Assembly: GCA_016935415.1 (NCBI GenBank)
Contig: JAFGRA010000307.1
Location: 1-53,521 of the forward strand
Reading direction: 5' to 3'
DNA: 53,521 bases
Source of the DNA: Anaerolineales bacterium
GTDB taxonomy: Bacteria; Chloroflexota; Anaerolineae; Anaerolineales; UBA11579
In this document: piece after piece, positions 15,088-25,594 of the stretch
Layout of the letters: the number at the start of each line of letters is the position of its first letter
How positions within the stretch are numbered: position 1 is the first letter of the stretch
Program-made: the position numbers and the translations under genes
Notes under the pieces: model-generated
Told to the model about the DNA's origin: nothing
Databases searched by the model: none
What the model saw: the letters and a program-made list of their open reading frames with translations, nothing else

Positions 15088-15621
15088 ATGTTGAAGTTTT
15101 CATGGCAAGAGGAATTGTGTCAAACATTGCAGTATCTGGAACGTGAAATCGGGCGTGCGCCACGCGTATGTGTGATTGGTACGGGCAGTGAAATGCGCGG
15201 CGATGATATCGCCGGATTGGATGTGGCCCGAGGGTTGTTGCATTGTCTTTGTGAGCATCCCGATACACCTTTTATGGTCATTGATGCCGGCGCGCAACCG
15301 GAAGATCATCTGAATAAGATTCGTGAATTCGATCCCGATTTTATTTTAATGGTCGATGCAGCTGACTTCCATGCCGAGCCTGGCAAGGTCAGTTGGGTTT
15401 CCTGGGAGACAGGACGCGGGTTTGATGCTACGCCACATACGCCGCGCACGGTCACCTTTGCACGTTACTTACATGAAGAAGTTAGCTGCCCGGTGGCATT
15501 GATCGCTATTCAACCTGAGCGTGTCAACTATAATCCCCCCTTGTCAAAACCGGTCTGGTTGGCGGTTGACCAGGTTGTGCACGGCATTGAGAAAGCCGTC
15601 CGGCCGATTGTCACTGCTTAG
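15088..15621 (+). CDS. Hydrogenase maturation endopeptidase (HycI-like)
   Basis: VIGTGSEMRGDDIAGLDVARGL, PDFILMVDAADFHAEPG, AIQPERVNYNPPLS. Confidence 0.85.
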   Translation: MLKFSWQEELCQTLQYLEREIGRAPRVCVIGTGSEMRGDDIAGLDVARGLLHCLCEHPDTPFMVIDAGAQPEDHLNKIREFDPDFILMVDAADFHAEPGKVSWVSWETGRGFDATPHTPRTVTFARYLHEEVSCPVALIAIQPERVNYNPPLSKPVWLAVDQVVHGIEKAVRPIVTA

Positions 15622-17600
15622 TCGATAAAAGCCGACGCTTTCCGATTATCTCTTTCCCAATCAAGGCGCGACCAGTTTGCGTCTTTTTTTATTTCAACAA
15701 CCTGCGCCGGGAAATCGACCTGAGTATAGAGGTTATCGTAACGAGGAAATTCGTGCGTGCGGATTTCCTCTTTGTTTAACAGGTATGGCCCTTTCCAGCC
15801 AAATTCGAGGCGACCCTGAGCAGGGGATTGATAGCTGACGCGTAGCCCGTTGAATGATAAGGGGGCAGCGCAAATCGTTTTAACGAATGTCGAGAAATTT
15901 CCGTTTTCCTGTTGGGAACCGAGTTCGCAAATCCAGATATTTTGCTGCCCTTCGGCAATGATTTCCCGGTTATTATCCTCGCCCGCGGCTTGCTGCCAGG
16001 TATAAGGCCGCCGTGAATGCAAGGCCAGATAGCTGGTATCTTTGTGCGCGAAAATCCATCCTTTACGCTCGATAACTTCATCGAACTGATCTCTGGGCAG
16101 CCAGGCGTGTGTAAAGAATAATTGGTTGGTGACGTATAGACCGGGCGCGCGACTGAGATTGTAGATTGCAATGAGGACATTCTTGTGTTGGACGACACGG
16201 GGCAGTGTACCTGAACCCGTCCAGTAGTTGGGGGTTGGGCCATCCCGGCGCGGCGGATGGGTGGTAAAGCAGACCGCGTCTGGACCGAGGGTGGCCTGCC
16301 AGATATGCTGCTGGTCGCCGCCATAGCCGGGGCGATAATGCAGGGCGCTGCTTAGCATGTAGTCCGAGGTGCGGTAGGTGTAGATGTTGACTTCCTCGCG
16401 CGTATTGCGGCAAACGTCGCGTTCGAGCAGGCGCGCCAGCCAGGGTAAGAGGTCGAAGCGGCGAATTGTGTCGATCAGACGTTTATGATTGGCAAAATCT
16501 TTGAAGAATGCGTTTTCCCACCAGTTAAATTCGTCGAACATGCGCATGGTCAGGTTGGCGGTGTGTGGGTGCAGGTAGGCTTCCAGACTGAGCAAGACCA
16601 TGCCGTCTTCGAGGTTGTCGAATTTCAGTCCCCAACGTTTCGCTTCAGACACTTTGATGCCCATGCGCTGGCGGTTTTCGAAGGTGGCGGGTGTATTGGC
16701 GATGTCGAAGATCACCTGTGGCAGGCGGTAGTTTTCGCTCATCGCAAACAGCACCACGCTCATGTTGTCGTAGCCGGAAAATACACCAGTTCCAAATAAC
16801 AGCTTGGCGATGTCCGTGGTGCCTTCCAAGCGCGCCCATTTCTTATATTCTTCGTAACTGCGGCCATGTGTGCTGCCGAATACGCCTTTGAAACTGTTGA
16901 GCGCCATGTCGAAAAGTAGCAGGTCGACGATCATTTTCGCGCGTTGGCGGAGTTCTTCGTCGGCGGCGAAGTCCAGCAAGTTGAGCAGGGCAGCGAGGTC
17001 TTTGTCGTAATACACGTTGGAAAGCCATTCGCTGAAACCGGTTTTGAAGCGCAAATCCAGCCAGCGCAGGATGCGCGGACGACTGAGTTCTATTTTTTGC
17101 CTGCCGGTGTGGCCGGTGTTCGAAAAGACTTCATCTGGGTACATCTGGCCAACCAGGTAGGCGGCGGTAGCGAATAGAATCTGGTGGTTTTCTGTCCAGG
17201 TACACATGTCATCGCGTCCTGGCTCATCAGGCCAGTATTTGAAGCCTAAGATAGCTGTTTTGGCGTGCTCGCGTAATTCCTGGCTGAAATGTTCCGGAAT
17301 CTGGTAAAGCATGCGGATGATGGCGTGTAGGGCGAAATCGGCGCAGTCGGCACGGGCTTCGATGAACTCGGTCAGCGTTTCGTGGATGATACCTTCGTGG
17401 GGCGTGCCACCGGCGGCAGCACGGGCGACTTCGTAGTAGGCGCGCTTGCTGTTGTGTTCTGGAGCGGGATTATGCAGGATGTGTTGCCAGAAGGCCTCTC
17501 GGCGTTGCTCGAAGCTGGGCGCGAAAACGGTTGTCGAATACGTGTCGGGAGTTTCTTGTTTGGGATAATTGGCGGGTGGGTAGGTCGGATGATCGCTCAA
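15618..17600 (-). CDS. Conserved-looking hypothetical protein, 660 aa; possibly alpha/alpha-toroid or heparinase-like fold
   Basis: Long intact ORF with family-like motifs (DDMCTWTENHQILFATAAYL, YRPGYGGDQQHIWQATLGPDAVCFTTHPP); fold call is inference. Confidence 0.65.
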   Translation of the reverse strand: MSDHPTYPPANYPKQETPDTYSTTVFAPSFEQRREAFWQHILHNPAPEHNSKRAYYEVARAAAGGTPHEGIIHETLTEFIEARADCADFALHAIIRMLYQIPEHFSQELREHAKTAILGFKYWPDEPGRDDMCTWTENHQILFATAAYLVGQMYPDEVFSNTGHTGRQKIELSRPRILRWLDLRFKTGFSEWLSNVYYDKDLAALLNLLDFAADEELRQRAKMIVDLLLFDMALNSFKGVFGSTHGRSYEEYKKWARLEGTTDIAKLLFGTGVFSGYDNMSVVLFAMSENYRLPQVIFDIANTPATFENRQRMGIKVSEAKRWGLKFDNLEDGMVLLSLEAYLHPHTANLTMRMFDEFNWWENAFFKDFANHKRLIDTIRRFDLLPWLARLLERDVCRNTREEVNIYTYRTSDYMLSSALHYRPGYGGDQQHIWQATLGPDAVCFTTHPPRRDGPTPNYWTGSGTLPRVVQHKNVLIAIYNLSRAPGLYVTNQLFFTHAWLPRDQFDEVIERKGWIFAHKDTSYLALHSRRPYTWQQAAGEDNNREIIAEGQQNIWICELGSQQENGNFSTFVKTICAAPLSFNGLRVSYQSPAQGRLEFGWKGPYLLNKEEIRTHEFPRYDNLYTQVDFPAQVVEIKKDANWSRLDWERDNRKASAFID

Positions 17601-17841: not shown

Positions 17842-20800
17842 ATGCCTTGTCCGAAATGCAACCATTTAGAATATCAAGCGAATAAGCCCTGTCCTAACTG
17901 CAACTTCAGTGGGGATACAGATCAAATCGTCGAATTGACCCACATAAAGTGGATGCTGCGTGAAATCTATTCCTGGGAGCCAAATGAACTGCAAGCAGCA
18001 GAGCGGAGCGCGTTGGTATCCCGGTATACGACGCGCCTGCGAGAGCTTGAAATCCAATTGGGGTTGCGTGCCCGGCCTTTTGCGGCCGAAGAGGCGCCAC
18101 AGCGTTGGCAGGAATTGATCCGGCTGGAAGCATTTTTTAATTTGCTGACTACCTGGCAAAACGCCCACGCCCTGGATGCCAAATCCTCGCAAGCTTTACG
18201 GGGCGATATCTGGGCGCAGATCAAGGATTTGCGGAAGCGGTTGGAAGACTTCGAACGCCCGAAGTACCCAGAAACACAACAGGAGCAGCTTGAAGTCAAC
18301 ATTTTCCTGTTGGAGCAAATCCAACTGTACCAGGATGAGGGGAAACTCCATTTCCTGGATAGTAAAGTGTTGTCCGACCTGCATCAACAAAAGAAGGAAT
18401 TAGAGATCGCGCTGGGCTTGCAGTCTACGCCGGAAGAGAGCGGGGATAGTGTAGAAGAAATTGAAGTAGAGGCGCAGCCGGAACAAGTATATGAAGTCCC
18501 GGAAATAGCCGATATCATTCCGCCTCCGCCCAAGCTGCCGCTGCGCGAGCGCATTATGCGCTCGATGTTGTCCGAGCGAACGCTTCAAGCTGTGCTTTTC
18601 CTGGGTATCTTTTTGCTGTTCTCTGCGGCGCTTTCCTTTGTGATTTGGGGCTGGCAAAATTTTTCGGCAGCCGTACGGGTAGCAATCCCTATTGCCTTTA
18701 CGCTGGTATTCTTCCTGATTGGTTGGTACGTGCGCGAGAAAACACCGCTCAGTCGATCGGGGGTAGCGATCGAGGCGATTGCGGCGTTGTTGATCCCGAT
18801 TGACTTTTATACGGTTTATGCCAATTACGGTAACCCGCCGGATTATTGGTCTGAATTCTGGCTGTTGACTTCTGTTTTATGCTTGGGAGCCTATATACTT
18901 TTGACGTTGAACATCCAGAGTGAGTTCTTTGGGTATCTGGTGGTCACTGCGGCAGGCAGTGTGGTGCTTTCCACGATTGAAATCTTCGATCTGTCGCGCG
19001 ATTGGTATCCAGCCGGACTTTCGGTGTTGGCGGTGGTAGCATTGGTTATTGCCACGCTGCTCTCGCGGCGCCCAGAGCCGGGAGAGATGGATATATTTGC
19101 TGCCCCCTTCCGCTATATGGCGTTGCTGATCCCTGGTATCTTGATGCCGCTGACGCTGGGATGGCGTATGATCGACCGCAGTACATACGATTCATTGCAT
19201 TATGCAATGACGGCCAGTTGGCTGTTGGGTAGCTTGATCTTTGGTTGGGGGGCAATTTACCATCGCAGCCGCAGCCTGGGCTTGCTGGCCCCTACCGCAT
19301 TACCGATCTCGATCTATATGCTGCAGGGGGCGATCTTCGACGCCATCGGGACAAATCTGGCCTGGCAGGCTTTCGGAATCGCGCTGATCGTGCCGTATTA
19401 CTTCTATTCTGGGTGGTACCTATCCCAAAAAGATGATGCTGTGTTCCAAGGACATGGGCGGGTATTGAACGTGTGGGGGACGGTTTTGCTGATCGTGATG
19501 CCGTTTTGGGCGCTCACCGATCTGCGCAGCGGGGCAGCGGCGGCGAGCACACATGCAGTGCTGGCGGGGGCAGCAATCTTGGCCGCGGGGTTGTGGCAAC
19601 GCCCGCGGTATCTTTACGTGGCTTCGGTATTGGCTGCCAGTGCAACCAGCTTTTTTGTCAGCGAAATTGGGTTTACAACCAGTGAGGTGAGCGTTGGTTG
19701 GGCGTCCCTGGCGATACTACACGTTGTGACTGCTTTTTGGCTCGGCCGGACACATTTTAATGCAGGGAAACGCTTTATCACGCCGCTCGTGCGCGCCGGT
19801 TATGCGATCTCACTGCTGGCAATCCTGCTGGCGCTTGTGCAATATGATGGACAATTGCTATCGTATTCACTGGGGAACTGGATTCTGTTGACGATCTGGG
19901 GAGCTAGACTGGCCTATCTAAACGCTCCTGGATTTGCGACTGAGAAAGAGCGCTACCGCACGCGCTTCCACTGGCTTGCGGCGTTGGCTATGCCTTTCTG
20001 GTTGTGGGTAATTATCAACAACCAGCAGCCTGCTGATGAAGTCCTGCCGCTGGCATTGACCGGTTTAGCCTGGGGAATGGCGTTGGTCAGTTATCGTCTC
20101 AAAAAATTCGATCGGGCTTTCCATTTGCCCTGGTACTTGACTGGCTTGGTGGTTAATCATATTGCTGTGTTGGTAGCGATCGGAACACTCGGTTTCAGCT
20201 ATACGCTATCCTTCGTGGTGCTGGCGCTGGGCGGGTTGTTTTTGACGGATGCTTTTGCCGTTCACGTTTCGCGAGAACTTTTTCCGGGCGGATTGGTTGG
20301 CGTCGTCGGGCTAATCCTTTTGATGCATGAATTCGAATTGACGCGGGAAGAAATTGCCTTTGGTATCGGTGTGTTGGTAACGGTGTACTTCCTGTCCGGG
20401 TTGTTGATCGAACGCCTTAAGTCGCAAGTCTTCACGGGAGAGTTCTTAGTTCCTCTGTATGCCAGCGCGCATCTCTTGACTTTGGTCATATTGTTGATCC
20501 TTTATAGCCGTCCTCTCGATCAGTTTGTTTTCCGTGGCGAGTGGACGGATGCGATGCGTTTGTGGGGAGCGGGGACGCAGTTGGTATTGGGGATTATGTA
20601 TGGCTTTTTTGCCTGGGGTAAATATAAAGAAGTTTGGGGGCACGTTGCAGCCTGGTTGGGGGCAGCCGGAGGCGGATTCATCGCCATTATTCTGAGCAGC
20701 GGTAGCGGGCGTTCGGCGGTGATAGCTGCCGTTGTGGCAATCGTTTATGTGTTGGCGGAACGAGGACTGCATCATGGACGCCGCTTGCTGCGATTATCTG

Positions 20801-23625
20801 TTCGCTTGCGGGCGTACGACCGTCTGGCGTGGCACTTGTACAGGCGTCCATTATTGTTTGCAGGATGGGTGGTCTCGGCCGGGGCAATTGGCCTAGCGTT
20901 GGTACGCAACTTGTGGATATTAGGTGGGCAGCGTATCCAACAAACCTGGGCAGTGGTCTGCCTACTGCTGGTGGTGGCGCTTTATGCGCTCTCAGCACGC
21001 TTGTTCCGGCGAGCGCGCTTCGTGTGGTTGGCAGCGTTGGTGCTGTTTGTGCCCTGGACGATCCTGACTCGGATGGGCTGGTTTTTCAAGTGGCGTTTCT
21101 CTATTCCCGAATTCGCGATCAGTTGGGTCATGCTGGCCTGGTTGCTTTACGTCATCGGCCTGTATTTAAAGCCCAGGATTCAACCGAAATATGTGTTGCC
21201 GCTGAATGTTGTGACACAAGTGTTGCTTGTATTCGCGTTGTTCTGGGGTATCGCTGATGTGGATACCGGCAAATATAGTTTCGGATTGGCAATAGGTCTG
21301 TATGTGTTGGCTGCCTGGCTGGATTATAGAATGTTGGCGGGAGCGAATGAAAGTATGTCGGTTATAAAAGCGAGCCGGTATCTGTATCTGGCGTTGCTTT
21401 TGGTGCCGGTGTGGTGCGTGTATTTGCTGGCCTGGAGTCTCCCACAGGCACAGCACGAACTTTATGGGGTGATGTTTTTGGCGTTTGGCATAATAGGGGT
21501 GCTGGTCGGACGTTGGTTCCGGCGACGGAGAGCAGTATCTGAGCAATGCGAACGATACGCCCTACCAGCCTACCTGACCGGCTATTTGGCTTTGATCGTG
21601 GGTACGATGTTGGTCGCCCACATCCCTACCTTGCTGGCGTTTGGGCTGGTCTACGCTGCTCTGGTGATGCTTTTGTCGGCGCGCCTATTTCGCAACCCCG
21701 GCTGGGTATATCCCGCCGCGATTTTTCTTGCGCTGGCGCTGCTACTGGCGATGCATGAAGCCGAAATCGACGTCAATCGACAAGGTTGGGGATTGATCGC
21801 GCTGGCAGCCGTTTATCTGATGTTGGCCTGGCTGCTGCGCCGGGTGAAGCTACCTGCTTACGGCACGGCTTTGCTGGCGACCGGATTTGCATTGATCGCC
21901 TTTGGCCTGCCGCCATCCAGCCAAGATCAGGACGGCGCCTTGTGGGGATACGGCGCAGCAGCATTTTTATATGTGGTGAGTGCCTTTTGGCTGAGACAGC
22001 CGCTGCTGTTGACCCCGGCATGTGCGCTAGTGATAGTTCCTTATGCAATTGGTATCCAGAAATTAGAAATCTCCTCGGACTGGGTTGGCTTGAGCCTATA
22101 TCCGGGAGCGGTTGCAGCGCTGGTGGTGGCCTGGATGCTGGATAAGCACCAAGGGATGCCCAAGCAATTCCCGTGGAACGCTCCGGAAAAATGGCCGGTT
22201 GCGGTAGGGAATCGTTTCTTCGGTTGGTGGGGTTTGCCGCTATATATACTGGGGTTTGGCCTGGCAACCTTTAGCCCAATCTTCACCGCCGGACGAGATG
22301 ACCTGGTAGCCCTGAATTGTTTGCTGCTCATGCTGGTGTTTGCCTGGGCCGTTTACCGTTTCCGGTTGCGCGGCTGGCTGTTCGCCAGTGTTGCGGCGGG
22401 GCACCTGGCATACGCCTTCTTGCTGCGCTCGTGGGGCTGGTGGCGCTACCCAGTACATGCCTGGATGCATTTCCTGCCGGTGAGCGTATTGACAGCGTTG
22501 GCAGCTATCTGGGTGATGCGTAGGTTAGGCGAGAAATCGCCGCTGACGAAAGAGTATTGGCACGTGGGCTGGTCACGTCCATTGTTCTTGATCGCAGCTT
22601 TCGATATTTTGATCTCACAACTCGGCAGCCTGGCTCTCGCCGATGCGGCTGCGCTGATCACCTTGGTCAATGCTTTACTGATTGCTTTCTGGTCTTCGGC
22701 CCTGTACGCGCCCAATTTGCTTTACGCCAGCAGCATTCTAGGCCTGGTTTCGCTTGGGCAGTGGCTGATGTTCAAGTTGGAATCTTTGGAGCGGATCCTG
22801 CCGGCGTATGCCTTATTGACACTGGCGTACGCTGTGATTGGTTATGGCCTGACGTTGTTGAAGCGGGGGCGTGAGCATTCTGTACCGGGCTGGTTGGCGG
22901 CCTGGGAGAAACCATTCCAGTTAAGCAGCCGGGTGCTGTCATTCTTGTTACTTTTCTGTACGGCCGTTTTTGGTTTCCCCTTGGCGTATTGGAGTTTGCG
23001 AGCTGTCTTTGGATTCGCATTCCGCCACCTGGTCATCTTGGAAAAGGTGCGGATGGTGATCGAGGTTTTCTCCTTCATTGGGTTAGCCTACTTAGCTAGA
23101 GCGTTTGCTTACCGCCGTACGCGCCTGTCCTACTCTGCCAGCGGCTTGCTGCTGGTGAGCTGGTTGCTGTATGCCTTTTATATACAACAATGGGATAACC
23201 TTGCCAGGGTGCAGTGGTACGTGATCCCAACCGGGTTGTACATCCTGGGAGTGGCTTTCCTGGAATGGCGACAGGGAAACAAGACGCTGGCGCGCTGGCT
23301 GGACTATACTGCTATGCTGCTTATGCTGGGGTCGTTATTCCGGCAGACATTGGCGTTTGGATGGAGCTATGCCTTAATGCTTGGCCTTGAAGGTTTCCTC
23401 ACAATCTGGTGGGGCAGCGCCCGGCGGCTGCGGCGTTTTCTGTACGCCGGGATGGTCGGCGTGATTCTGGCGACCGTGGGACAACTTATCAACTCTTTGC
23501 AATCCATCAACCAGTGGATCACCTTTGGCATTATTGGTATTCTATTAGTGGTAGCAGCGATCTTCATCGAACGCCGTCTGGAGCAACTGAAAGCCTGGCA
23601 AGAATTATTGGAATCCTGGGAATAG
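17842..23625 (+). CDS. Giant polytopic membrane protein (1927 aa) with N-terminal double-CxxC zinc ribbon (SCO7613/DUF2157-like architecture)
   Basis: MPCPKCNHLEYQANKPCPNCNFSGD, soluble helical segment to about residue 230, then dozens of hydrophobic segments. Confidence 0.85.
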   Translation: MPCPKCNHLEYQANKPCPNCNFSGDTDQIVELTHIKWMLREIYSWEPNELQAAERSALVSRYTTRLRELEIQLGLRARPFAAEEAPQRWQELIRLEAFFNLLTTWQNAHALDAKSSQALRGDIWAQIKDLRKRLEDFERPKYPETQQEQLEVNIFLLEQIQLYQDEGKLHFLDSKVLSDLHQQKKELEIALGLQSTPEESGDSVEEIEVEAQPEQVYEVPEIADIIPPPPKLPLRERIMRSMLSERTLQAVLFLGIFLLFSAALSFVIWGWQNFSAAVRVAIPIAFTLVFFLIGWYVREKTPLSRSGVAIEAIAALLIPIDFYTVYANYGNPPDYWSEFWLLTSVLCLGAYILLTLNIQSEFFGYLVVTAAGSVVLSTIEIFDLSRDWYPAGLSVLAVVALVIATLLSRRPEPGEMDIFAAPFRYMALLIPGILMPLTLGWRMIDRSTYDSLHYAMTASWLLGSLIFGWGAIYHRSRSLGLLAPTALPISIYMLQGAIFDAIGTNLAWQAFGIALIVPYYFYSGWYLSQKDDAVFQGHGRVLNVWGTVLLIVMPFWALTDLRSGAAAASTHAVLAGAAILAAGLWQRPRYLYVASVLAASATSFFVSEIGFTTSEVSVGWASLAILHVVTAFWLGRTHFNAGKRFITPLVRAGYAISLLAILLALVQYDGQLLSYSLGNWILLTIWGARLAYLNAPGFATEKERYRTRFHWLAALAMPFWLWVIINNQQPADEVLPLALTGLAWGMALVSYRLKKFDRAFHLPWYLTGLVVNHIAVLVAIGTLGFSYTLSFVVLALGGLFLTDAFAVHVSRELFPGGLVGVVGLILLMHEFELTREEIAFGIGVLVTVYFLSGLLIERLKSQVFTGEFLVPLYASAHLLTLVILLILYSRPLDQFVFRGEWTDAMRLWGAGTQLVLGIMYGFFAWGKYKEVWGHVAAWLGAAGGGFIAIILSSGSGRSAVIAAVVAIVYVLAERGLHHGRRLLRLSVRLRAYDRLAWHLYRRPLLFAGWVVSAGAIGLALVRNLWILGGQRIQQTWAVVCLLLVVALYALSARLFRRARFVWLAALVLFVPWTILTRMGWFFKWRFSIPEFAISWVMLAWLLYVIGLYLKPRIQPKYVLPLNVVTQVLLVFALFWGIADVDTGKYSFGLAIGLYVLAAWLDYRMLAGANESMSVIKASRYLYLALLLVPVWCVYLLAWSLPQAQHELYGVMFLAFGIIGVLVGRWFRRRRAVSEQCERYALPAYLTGYLALIVGTMLVAHIPTLLAFGLVYAALVMLLSARLFRNPGWVYPAAIFLALALLLAMHEAEIDVNRQGWGLIALAAVYLMLAWLLRRVKLPAYGTALLATGFALIAFGLPPSSQDQDGALWGYGAAAFLYVVSAFWLRQPLLLTPACALVIVPYAIGIQKLEISSDWVGLSLYPGAVAALVVAWMLDKHQGMPKQFPWNAPEKWPVAVGNRFFGWWGLPLYILGFGLATFSPIFTAGRDDLVALNCLLLMLVFAWAVYRFRLRGWLFASVAAGHLAYAFLLRSWGWWRYPVHAWMHFLPVSVLTALAAIWVMRRLGEKSPLTKEYWHVGWSRPLFLIAAFDILISQLGSLALADAAALITLVNALLIAFWSSALYAPNLLYASSILGLVSLGQWLMFKLESLERILPAYALLTLAYAVIGYGLTLLKRGREHSVPGWLAAWEKPFQLSSRVLSFLLLFCTAVFGFPLAYWSLRAVFGFAFRHLVILEKVRMVIEVFSFIGLAYLARAFAYRRTRLSYSASGLLLVSWLLYAFYIQQWDNLARVQWYVIPTGLYILGVAFLEWRQGNKTLARWLDYTAMLLMLGSLFRQTLAFGWSYALMLGLEGFLTIWWGSARRLRRFLYAGMVGVILATVGQLINSLQSINQWITFGIIGILLVVAAIFIERRLEQLKAWQELLESWE

Positions 23626-23628
23626 ACC

Positions 23629-24939
23629 ATGAGTGTTGAAACTGTGAAAGAAAAATCCATAAAGAACATGCCAGGTCAAATGCCTTTATGGCAAAAGCGC
23701 ACGATCAAGGTAATTGGCATACTGATGGCCATTGTGGGTCTTCCGGTGGGGGTTGCTTCTTTGTGCGTCGGTTTACTTTCGATTATCGATGGATCTACTG
23801 GTCAAGGTCTTGCCGTGCTTCTATTTGGATTGCTCGCGTTCGGTGGTGGATTATTAACCGCCTACCATGCAAATGCGTCAATTGACAAAAGGCCTTCCAA
23901 ACCGCTGAAGCTCCCCAAAGAATGGGTATTGGTGGGTGCGTTCGTTCTATTAGTCTATCTGGGGGTATTGATCTCTCCGGTTGGAGACGATGGTGTTGTG
24001 TTCGCGCCAGTCTTGATCGTGCTGGCGTTGCTGCCACCTACCTGGGCGATGGCGTGGTTCCGGCGCAATCAGCCGGATACGTTGACCGCACGGCGTGGGA
24101 TTGTAGCTTTGATCGGTGGGGCAACGGTTAGTGTGTTATTTGCCCTGCTGTTGGAAGTCCTCTTCCCAACGATCATCCTTTCATTGGTTTACGAGCTTTA
24201 CGGTTCGGTTTTGGTAAGTGTGCGGACGTTACTAAGAGAGTTAGCCTGGCGGGAGATCGCCAGGGCGCTCACCAGTCCCGGCTTTATCTTCGCATTCGTT
24301 CACCTGGCGATCGTGGCACCGCTGGCAGAGGAGCTTGCCAAGCCACTGGTTACCTTGCCGGTGATTGGATATCTATCCAAACGGGAAGCATTCCTGGTTG
24401 GGGCGATGGCCGGGATTGGCTTTGCGGCAGTGGAGAATGTGCTCTACGCTGGGTTTGGTTTTTCCTTCTGGGCGGGTATCCTGGTAGTGCGCGCTTTGGG
24501 TGGCGCGATCCACCCGTTGGGTTCGGGGTTGGTAGCCGCGGGGTGGCAGGGAGTTCTCCGTCGTGAAAAGGATGCGCTGCGCAAGTGGTTGAGTTATTTT
24601 GGACTGGCAGTCGGAATCCACGCGCTATGGAACGGTGGTTCGCTTTTGGTGATCACGTTGGCAGGTGCGCAATTCTTTGGAGATTTACCGCCCGAGATCG
24701 ATGTGCTGGGACTGTCGGCGGGTGGCACGACTCTGGCATTTTTGATTGTCTTGGGGTTAGCGGCATTGTGGTTGGGTGAAGCGATATTCAAAACCGAGGG
24801 CTCAGATTCTGAGCGAGATGCCGACGTGATGGAAGAATTGTTCATGGTGTCGGACCGGGCGATGGCGATCTGGGCGTTTGCTTGCCTGGTTGCCTTTGTA
24901 CCAGCCGGGATCGCTGGGTTACAACTAATTTTGCGGTGA
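23629..24939 (+). CDS. PrsW-like intramembrane metalloprotease
   Basis: PLAEELAKPLVTLPVIGYLSKREAFLVGAMAGIGFAAVENVLY, later GIHALWNGG; multi-TM. Confidence 0.85.
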   Translation: MSVETVKEKSIKNMPGQMPLWQKRTIKVIGILMAIVGLPVGVASLCVGLLSIIDGSTGQGLAVLLFGLLAFGGGLLTAYHANASIDKRPSKPLKLPKEWVLVGAFVLLVYLGVLISPVGDDGVVFAPVLIVLALLPPTWAMAWFRRNQPDTLTARRGIVALIGGATVSVLFALLLEVLFPTIILSLVYELYGSVLVSVRTLLRELAWREIARALTSPGFIFAFVHLAIVAPLAEELAKPLVTLPVIGYLSKREAFLVGAMAGIGFAAVENVLYAGFGFSFWAGILVVRALGGAIHPLGSGLVAAGWQGVLRREKDALRKWLSYFGLAVGIHALWNGGSLLVITLAGAQFFGDLPPEIDVLGLSAGGTTLAFLIVLGLAALWLGEAIFKTEGSDSERDADVMEELFMVSDRAMAIWAFACLVAFVPAGIAGLQLILR

Positions 24940-24954
24940 TGGTGAAAAGCGGTT

Positions 24955-25512
24955 ATGAAGGCACCTAAGTTTTTACGTAAGCTGAATATCAACACGCTGT
25001 TCGTGGTGATCCTAATCGTCGCTAACCTTTTTACCTGGCTGCGGTTGCTGCTGGCCATGCCGGAACCATACCTAGTCGACCCGGTGCGCGATCCCGAAGT
25101 GGTCGCTTTGCTCGAGTATATCCGTTCTGGAGAGCATTCAGGCGAGGAGTGGGTGGTGCACTTGACTGAGGAAGAGGCCGAGCAGACGATTGCCTGGTAC
25201 TTGAATCGCTACCCGCAAATCCCGTTTGCGCATCCACACGTGGAAATCACGTCCGATTATGTATTTGGCGAAGGCGACGCGACAATCACCGGATTGCGTG
25301 TGCATGTAAGTGGCAAGGCCAGTGTAACCTTGGAAAACGGCTTACCCAAGGTCGAAATTTTAGAATTAAGCCTGCCGCTGCCGCGACCAATCCGACAGGC
25401 ATTAGAACAGGAAATTGACAGGCAACTCCAACGCGCCGATTTGCTGCCGGTGCGTTTTACGTCAGCGGAATGGCATGATGGCGAAGTGATCGTTGAGGGG
25501 ATTATTCGATAA
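24955..25512 (+). CDS. Single-TM anchored hypothetical protein (extracytoplasmic domain possibly LmeA/DUF2993- or YpmS-like)
   Basis: N-terminal TM NINTLFVVILIVANLFTWLRLL; VHLTEEEAEQTIAWYLN; C-terminal beta-rich segment. Confidence 0.6.
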   Translation: MKAPKFLRKLNINTLFVVILIVANLFTWLRLLLAMPEPYLVDPVRDPEVVALLEYIRSGEHSGEEWVVHLTEEEAEQTIAWYLNRYPQIPFAHPHVEITSDYVFGEGDATITGLRVHVSGKASVTLENGLPKVEILELSLPLPRPIRQALEQEIDRQLQRADLLPVRFTSAEWHDGEVIVEGIIR

Positions 25513-25572
25513 TTGCAGCAGTTATCTTGATGAACTGGCAGAAGTGAGATAAATTAATAGGGACGATATAGG

Positions 25573-25594
25573 CCAGCAGGTTGCTGGTGGTTTT
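25573..25594 (+). terminator. Intrinsic terminator ending the giant-protein operon
   Basis: CCAGCA-ggt-TGCTGG-tggTTTTT. Confidence 0.65.

Follow-up and report, generated by a model that had tools for sequence, protein, structure and literature searches.

A giant membrane protein, a PrsW-type protease and an anchored small protein travel together in Chloroflexota: a probable, previously undescribed cell-envelope system

Introduction

Three adjacent genes of an Anaerolineales bacterium, located on contig JAFGRA010000307.1 (the whole stretch analysed, 53,521 nucleotides, is termed “the window” here), travel together through many Chloroflexota, their order sometimes changed, and hence are very probably parts of a single cell-envelope system that has not been described. 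They code for a giant polytopic membrane protein, a PrsW-family intramembrane metalloprotease and a small anchored protein (P3). An earlier note on this DNA had put forward the trio as a candidate envelope system; linkage in 25 genomes now stands behind this proposal, and a literature search found no paper describing the giant-PrsW-small combination.

Judged from sequence matches, each of the three proteins belongs to a known, mostly uncharacterised family. The module joins three poorly understood groups, the SCO7613/DUF2157 giants, PrsW outside the Firmicutes and the LmeA-type lipid binders; membership gives each of them a testable partner, and PrsW proteases gain a candidate for a natural substrate. 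In addition, a repeat-based architecture is supplied for giant polytopic proteins, and the module draws attention to the Chloroflexota envelope, whose biology has been little explored.

Genes and neighbourhood

The trio occupies the forward strand of the window, with gaps of 3 bp between giant and PrsW and 15 bp between PrsW and P3:

17842..23625 (+), giant membrane protein, 1927 aa (ORF; TM count, repeat analysis, alignment of 23 giants)
23629..24939 (+), PrsW-family intramembrane metalloprotease, 436 aa (PF13367 match; alignment A4)
24955..25512 (+), small anchored protein P3, 185 aa (ORF; AF2 pLDDT 84.4)
25572..25588 (+), terminator-like hairpin, then GGTTTTTAG (hairpin scan)

The ORF list and hydropathy agree with the earlier note on the three reading frames, their spacing and the single TM segment of the small protein. 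The closing terminator that it had placed at 25573 coincides with the hairpin listed above; such hairpins outnumber the shuffle mean in the scan (21 vs 11.7), and a single site of this kind is therefore weak evidence. The genes adjoining the trio are metabolic by their Pfam and NCBIfam matches, and comprise an SDR, a hydrogenase-maturation protease, an aldo/keto reductase, an APH and an ADH. Neither a sigma nor an anti-sigma gene was detected among the adjacent genes scanned with Pfam and NCBIfam (neighbours only), in line with the absence of an anti-sigma gene remarked on before, and no signalling output is encoded near the trio. Convergent with the hydrogenase-maturation protease gene lies a 660-aa ORF (15618-17600, minus strand, TTG start as listed) that has no Pfam or NCBIfam match.

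Linkage and co-occurrence in the Chloroflexota

The window's small-protein sequence alone matched nothing in the genome contigs, whereas an alignment query based on this protein yielded 28 loci, all of them in Chloroflexota records. These loci were found by the small protein only, and yet a giant is encoded upstream of it in 26 of the 28, and 20 include a PrsW that belongs to the module's subfamily. The two exceptions are L060, a contig edge whose mate contig L036 bears giant-PrsW, and G315 (L078/L090), where PrsW and the small protein occur together and a giant fragment is found on a separate contig. Counted over non-redundant loci, the clustered trio is present in 25 Chloroflexota genomes, one of which (G323) has it split over contigs; the genomes are mostly fragmented MAGs, and their genes were called with a simple ORF picker.

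Two gene orders occur, giant-PrsW-small and small-giant-PrsW. The latter is found in L134 and L142, which lie outside the window's class and belong to two different families, and a further locus outside the class (L133) reads giant-PrsW-(inserted gene)-small. That distant relatives keep the same three genes together and yet arrange them differently argues strongly for a functional unit. The trio arrangement is conserved far above chance, and the neighbourhood survey that had been suggested as a check on linkage beyond the window's strain finds it in many Chloroflexota.

Co-occurrence leads to the same picture. A giant is present in 32 of 298 sampled genomes of the window's class, and these 32 include every genome with a strong small-protein match (18/18) and every genome with the PrsW subfamily at E < 1e-20 (15/15); the Fisher value for the partners against the giant is < 1e-14, a statistic that ignores phylogeny. 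PrsW as a whole family occurs in at least 241 of the 298 genomes, and the tie to the giant is therefore a property of the subfamily and not of PrsW at large.

Partial sets are informative as well: nine genomes encode giant and small protein without PrsW, three giant and PrsW without small protein, and one PrsW and small protein. In five giant-plus-small genomes where PrsW is missing next to the pair, the module's PrsW subfamily is absent elsewhere too. From these combinations the giant emerges as the hub, giant plus small protein as a viable core and PrsW as a frequent dedicated accessory, which is dispensable to the core since nine genomes keep that pair without it. Ribbon-less giants of ~1200-1450 aa in family f82 (L135-L141) have neither partner.

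Additional genes are found in and around some modules. In three lineages, genes for beta-propeller proteins (PQQ/BamB-like, arylsulfotransferase-like, Reg_prop) interrupt the module (L030, 6802-8001, minus strand; L033, 757-2145, minus strand; L021, 3831-5711, plus strand). In L021, L023 and L024 the giant is followed by a DUF4870/HEAT-like protein, whose N-terminal domain is fused to the N-termini of giants in L038, L053, L054, L057 and L058, a Rosetta-stone pattern. An iterative profile built in L023 on the gene that follows the giant spread into giant N-termini; this gene was read as the fused DUF4870/HEAT-like accessory and not as a member of the window's trio.

Architecture of the giant membrane protein

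The giant consists of an N-terminal Zn ribbon, a cytosolic helical region (residues ~1-245), a tandem four-TM array (~245-1910) and a C-terminal E..WE motif, which is conserved in the alignment of 23 giants. Three elements are placed on the window as follows:

17848..17901 (+), Zn ribbon CPKC-x10-CPNC, residues 3-20 (sequence; conserved Cys)
18574..18966 (+), first membrane unit, DUF2157 (PF09925; 38.9 bits vs a cut-off of 32.4 as fragment)
23068..23613 (+), SCO7613_CTERM (NF047321) at the end of the array (61.4 bits vs a cut-off of 45)

The combination of a CPKC...CPNC ribbon with dozens of TM segments, as described from the letters of the sequence, holds: the ribbon cysteines (C3 and C6 of CPKC, residues 3-6; C17 and C20 of CPNC, residues 17-20) are kept in at least 95% of the 23 aligned giants, and simple hydropathy counts 44 TM segments. 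The likeness to SCO7613, also proposed there, is confirmed by the C-terminal domain. Residues 245-375 pass the DUF2157 cut-off within a 201-aa fragment (38.2 bits, E 3e-9 in a second scan), whereas Pfam hmmscan of the full-length giant reported no family and missed DUF2157. This example illustrates that long hydrophobic repeats can mask domains in whole-protein scans.

The internal repeat was assessed by profile-profile comparison (hhalign) of 200-column segments of the 23-giant alignment. The offsets cluster at ~101, 217-248, 330-364, 461-478, 577-586, 689-706, 802-810, 933-935 and 1029-1041, i.e., at multiples of ~116 residues, and none of the 105 reversed-profile control pairs or the 48 PrsW control pairs scored above 70. 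Since this period extends over ~1680 membrane residues, the membrane part comprises about 14 tandem units, each ~116 aa long and with about four TM helices. An AF2 model of residues 760-1927 (the last 1168 aa; pLDDT 76, pTM 0.50) contains 41 helices that are at least 14 aa long. Foldseek of this C-terminal model against the PDB matched no solved transporter; soluble alpha-solenoids of the TPR/HEAT type came up at TM ~0.16 or less, reflect the repeated-helix pattern only and were discarded as homologues. A tblastn search of the giant against plasmids gave no match.

For the Streptomyces protein SCO7613 a function as a PHA-synthase-like or storage-polymer protein has been proposed, as S. coelicolor contains less PHA once the SCO7613 region is deleted (PMC8313934). 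The same authors themselves offer a membrane protein as the alternative (PMC8313934), and the giant is a TM array in which neither Pfam nor NCBIfam finds a PhaC or alpha/beta hydrolase domain. A storage-polymer role for the giant is already disfavoured and appears highly improbable.

The small protein and its outer domain

P3 is composed of one TM helix and an outer alpha/beta domain, according to hydropathy and the AF2 model, and only ~12-14 residues lie in the cytosol. The two parts map to:

24988..25053 (+), TM helix, residues 12-33, N24 nearly invariant, W28 invariant (hydropathy, alignment, AF2)
25093..25509 (+), outer domain, residues 47-185, diverged LmeA/TULIP-type (profile bridge via L026/L027)

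Homologues across the loci are 32-70% identical to the window protein. No direct match to LmeA (PF11209) over the cut-off was obtained for the window's P3, and the best of 13 members reached E 0.048. The P3 profile matches lipoproteins in loci L026 and L027 at 1e-8 and 4e-10, respectively, and these pass the PF11209 cut-off at 9e-10 and 2e-7. Because the two lipoproteins bridge the P3 profile to LmeA, P3 belongs, as a diverged member, to the TULIP assemblage of LmeA and DUF2140, and the LmeA/TULIP-like appearance of the external domain noticed earlier is thereby borne out, if indirectly, by homology. The AF2 model predicts the outer domain well (pLDDT 84.4); Foldseek of the P3 model against the PDB returned START-, PR-10-, ToxS- and lipocalin-like matches, none of them significant. 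Antibody light chains, which appeared in a PDB sequence profile search of P3, were dismissed as a chance or low-complexity match over a short stretch.

Some relatives of P3 reside outside the module. In L026, L027 and L094, the gene for an LmeA-type lipoprotein is divergent from scpB, and LmeA-type proteins of the Chloroflexota thus have a conserved setting apart from the module; in L094 an Asp23/AmaP-like gene is near as well. In three genomes (L087-L089), P3 relatives without an obvious TM segment stand beside genes that read by eye like glycolipid synthesis, namely genes for an MGDG-synthase-like glycosyltransferase, an LPG-synthase-TM-like and a type I phosphodiesterase-like protein, and a nucleotide-sugar epimerase.

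The main rival to the model favoured below is lipid or glycolipid export, where the giant would move or scramble a lipid outward and hand it to P3, with PrsW as quality control. The LmeA/TULIP homology of P3 is consistent with such a route, as are the character of TULIP families as lipid-transfer domains (PMC6791001) and the MGDG-synthase-like, LPG-synthase-TM-like and phosphodiesterase-like genes, assigned by eye, that adjoin P3 relatives. However, the giant's model resembles no PDB transporter, only the soluble solenoids at the low scores given above, the giant is without an ATPase or catalytic signature, and a Zn ribbon is unexpected in a transporter. Overall, we consider export somewhat unlikely.

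The TM helix and the juxtamembrane region of P3 are equally conserved in genomes without the module's PrsW. The retention of N24 and W28 in these genomes suggests that the P3 helix contacts the giant and not PrsW.

The PrsW protease

The window PrsW matches PF13367 with E 7.1e-14 (52.2 bits vs a cut-off of 23.5) and has ~11 TM segments by hydropathy. Its catalytic motifs are:

24328..24342 (+), EELAK (E234, E235, K238), invariant in A4
24433..24438 (+), EN (E269, N270), invariant in A4
24511..24513 (+), H295, invariant in A4
24619..24633 (+), HALWN (H331-N335), with H331, W334 and N335 invariant in A4

Alignment A4 comprises 18 diverse members, other classes included, that are 29-55% identical to the window protein. 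EExxK, EN, H295 and HxxWNG are invariant in all 18, and the protein identified earlier as PrsW therefore carries its catalytic residues intact. Both refutations anticipated in the earlier note, a lack of linkage beyond the strain and a PrsW devoid of catalytic residues, fail. This invariance across widely diverged members implies that catalysis is under selection in most of them.

Two genomes deviate: in G323 (L036 with L060/L091) and G315 (L078/L090) the EE motif is lost and EN is changed to ES. These copies are likely pseudoproteases, whose role cannot be proteolysis since the catalytic EE motif is absent. Pseudoproteases serve as non-proteolytic assembly or client-binding factors, and the retention of the gene in both genomes would fit a PrsW that acts mainly in this manner on the giant. 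Yet, the motifs are invariant in the remaining members, which renders such a role rather improbable for the subfamily.

In B. subtilis, PrsW acts on RsiW as its site-1 protease (PMC3482391), and by analogy the module's PrsW could cut P3 or the giant and thereby set free a transcriptional signal in the cytosol, for which the Zn ribbon of the giant might be adduced. The analogy with RsiW and anti-sigma factors drawn at the outset does not carry over well: no sigma, anti-sigma or regulator gene is adjacent, P3 has only its short cytosolic segment, and its juxtamembrane region is alike with and without the module's PrsW. A cascade of this type is distinctly improbable; like a non-proteolytic PrsW, it ranks below lipid export.

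The window's genome encodes a second, diverged PrsW (L028, 16794-18104, plus strand; G000:C379). By eye, the gene upstream of it has thioredoxin-like and peptidyl-prolyl-isomerase-like regions, and the gene downstream is DedA-like.

A working model of the module

That the three genes make up a conserved module around the giant is shown by the computation; the working model that we favour for it is held tentatively. The giant would act as a scaffold in the cytoplasmic membrane or would sense its physical or lipid state. P3 would pack on the giant via its N/W-bearing TM helix and present an LmeA/TULIP-type lipid-binding domain outside, thus stabilising the giant or reporting a lipid to it. PrsW would be a dedicated antagonist that, once the signal changes, processes or degrades the giant or else the complex. 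The genes beside P3 relatives that look by eye like glycolipid synthesis speak for this model too. Against it stand the missing direct LmeA and PDB matches of P3, the nine genomes in which the core pair persists without PrsW, the two PrsW copies that lost the EE motif and the lack of a signalling output near the trio. Of the two candidates for substrate or sensor named previously, the small protein has lost ground as an obvious substrate, given the equal conservation of its membrane region without PrsW, and the giant, being the common hub, is the better candidate partner or substrate of the protease.

Precedents exist for several elements of this model. The four-TM DUF2157 unit corresponds to the LiaI-LiaF-TM sensory domain (PMC11237479), and DUF2993 and DUF2140 have been assigned to the TULIP domains (PMC6791001). 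The nearest precedent for P3 is LmeA, which keeps protein levels of the polytopic mannosyltransferase MptA up under stress; upon loss of LmeA, MptA protein is ~20-fold lower under starvation, and its mRNA is not lowered (PMC7643837).

A bolder version, which we regard as unlikely, casts the giant as a membrane-embedded alpha-solenoid of ~14 LiaF-like four-TM units that would read tension or lipids along its length, equipped with an outer lipid-binding domain and its own protease as off-switch. Nearly 60 TM helices are implied by this reading. If true, the solenoid giant would represent a type of membrane sensor or scaffold that is new to description.

Comparison with known systems

The giant shares with the SCO7613_CTERM (NF047321) proteins a C-terminal domain over the cut-off and a large polytopic build. 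In contrast, the papers found describe no Zn-ribbon type of 1500-2280 aa with linkage to PrsW and a TULIP-like protein. We know of no established mechanism for the SCO7613_CTERM family.

The DUF2157/LiaI-LiaF-TM proteins of PSP/Lia envelope stress resemble the giant in its first unit, which exceeds the DUF2157 cut-off, and in the four-TM design, whereas the giant holds ~14 diverged copies in one chain. Unlike in Lia/PSP systems, scans of the trio and its adjacent genes revealed neither Toastrack, PspA or PspC nor two-component genes (LiaRS was likewise sought in the giant, the small protein and these neighbours, and not found).

With B. subtilis PrsW, the site-1 protease of RsiW, the window protein has the PF13367 match and all catalytic motifs in common. 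The module's subfamily differs in that it is strictly tied to the giant, has no anti-sigma substrate among its neighbours and includes two catalytically degenerate members.

P3, finally, is related to LmeA (PF11209) and the DUF2140 TULIP proteins through its lipoprotein relatives and has a predicted extracytoplasmic alpha/beta domain like theirs, whereas it has diverged below the Pfam cut-off, is anchored by a single TM helix and is dedicated to a giant partner.
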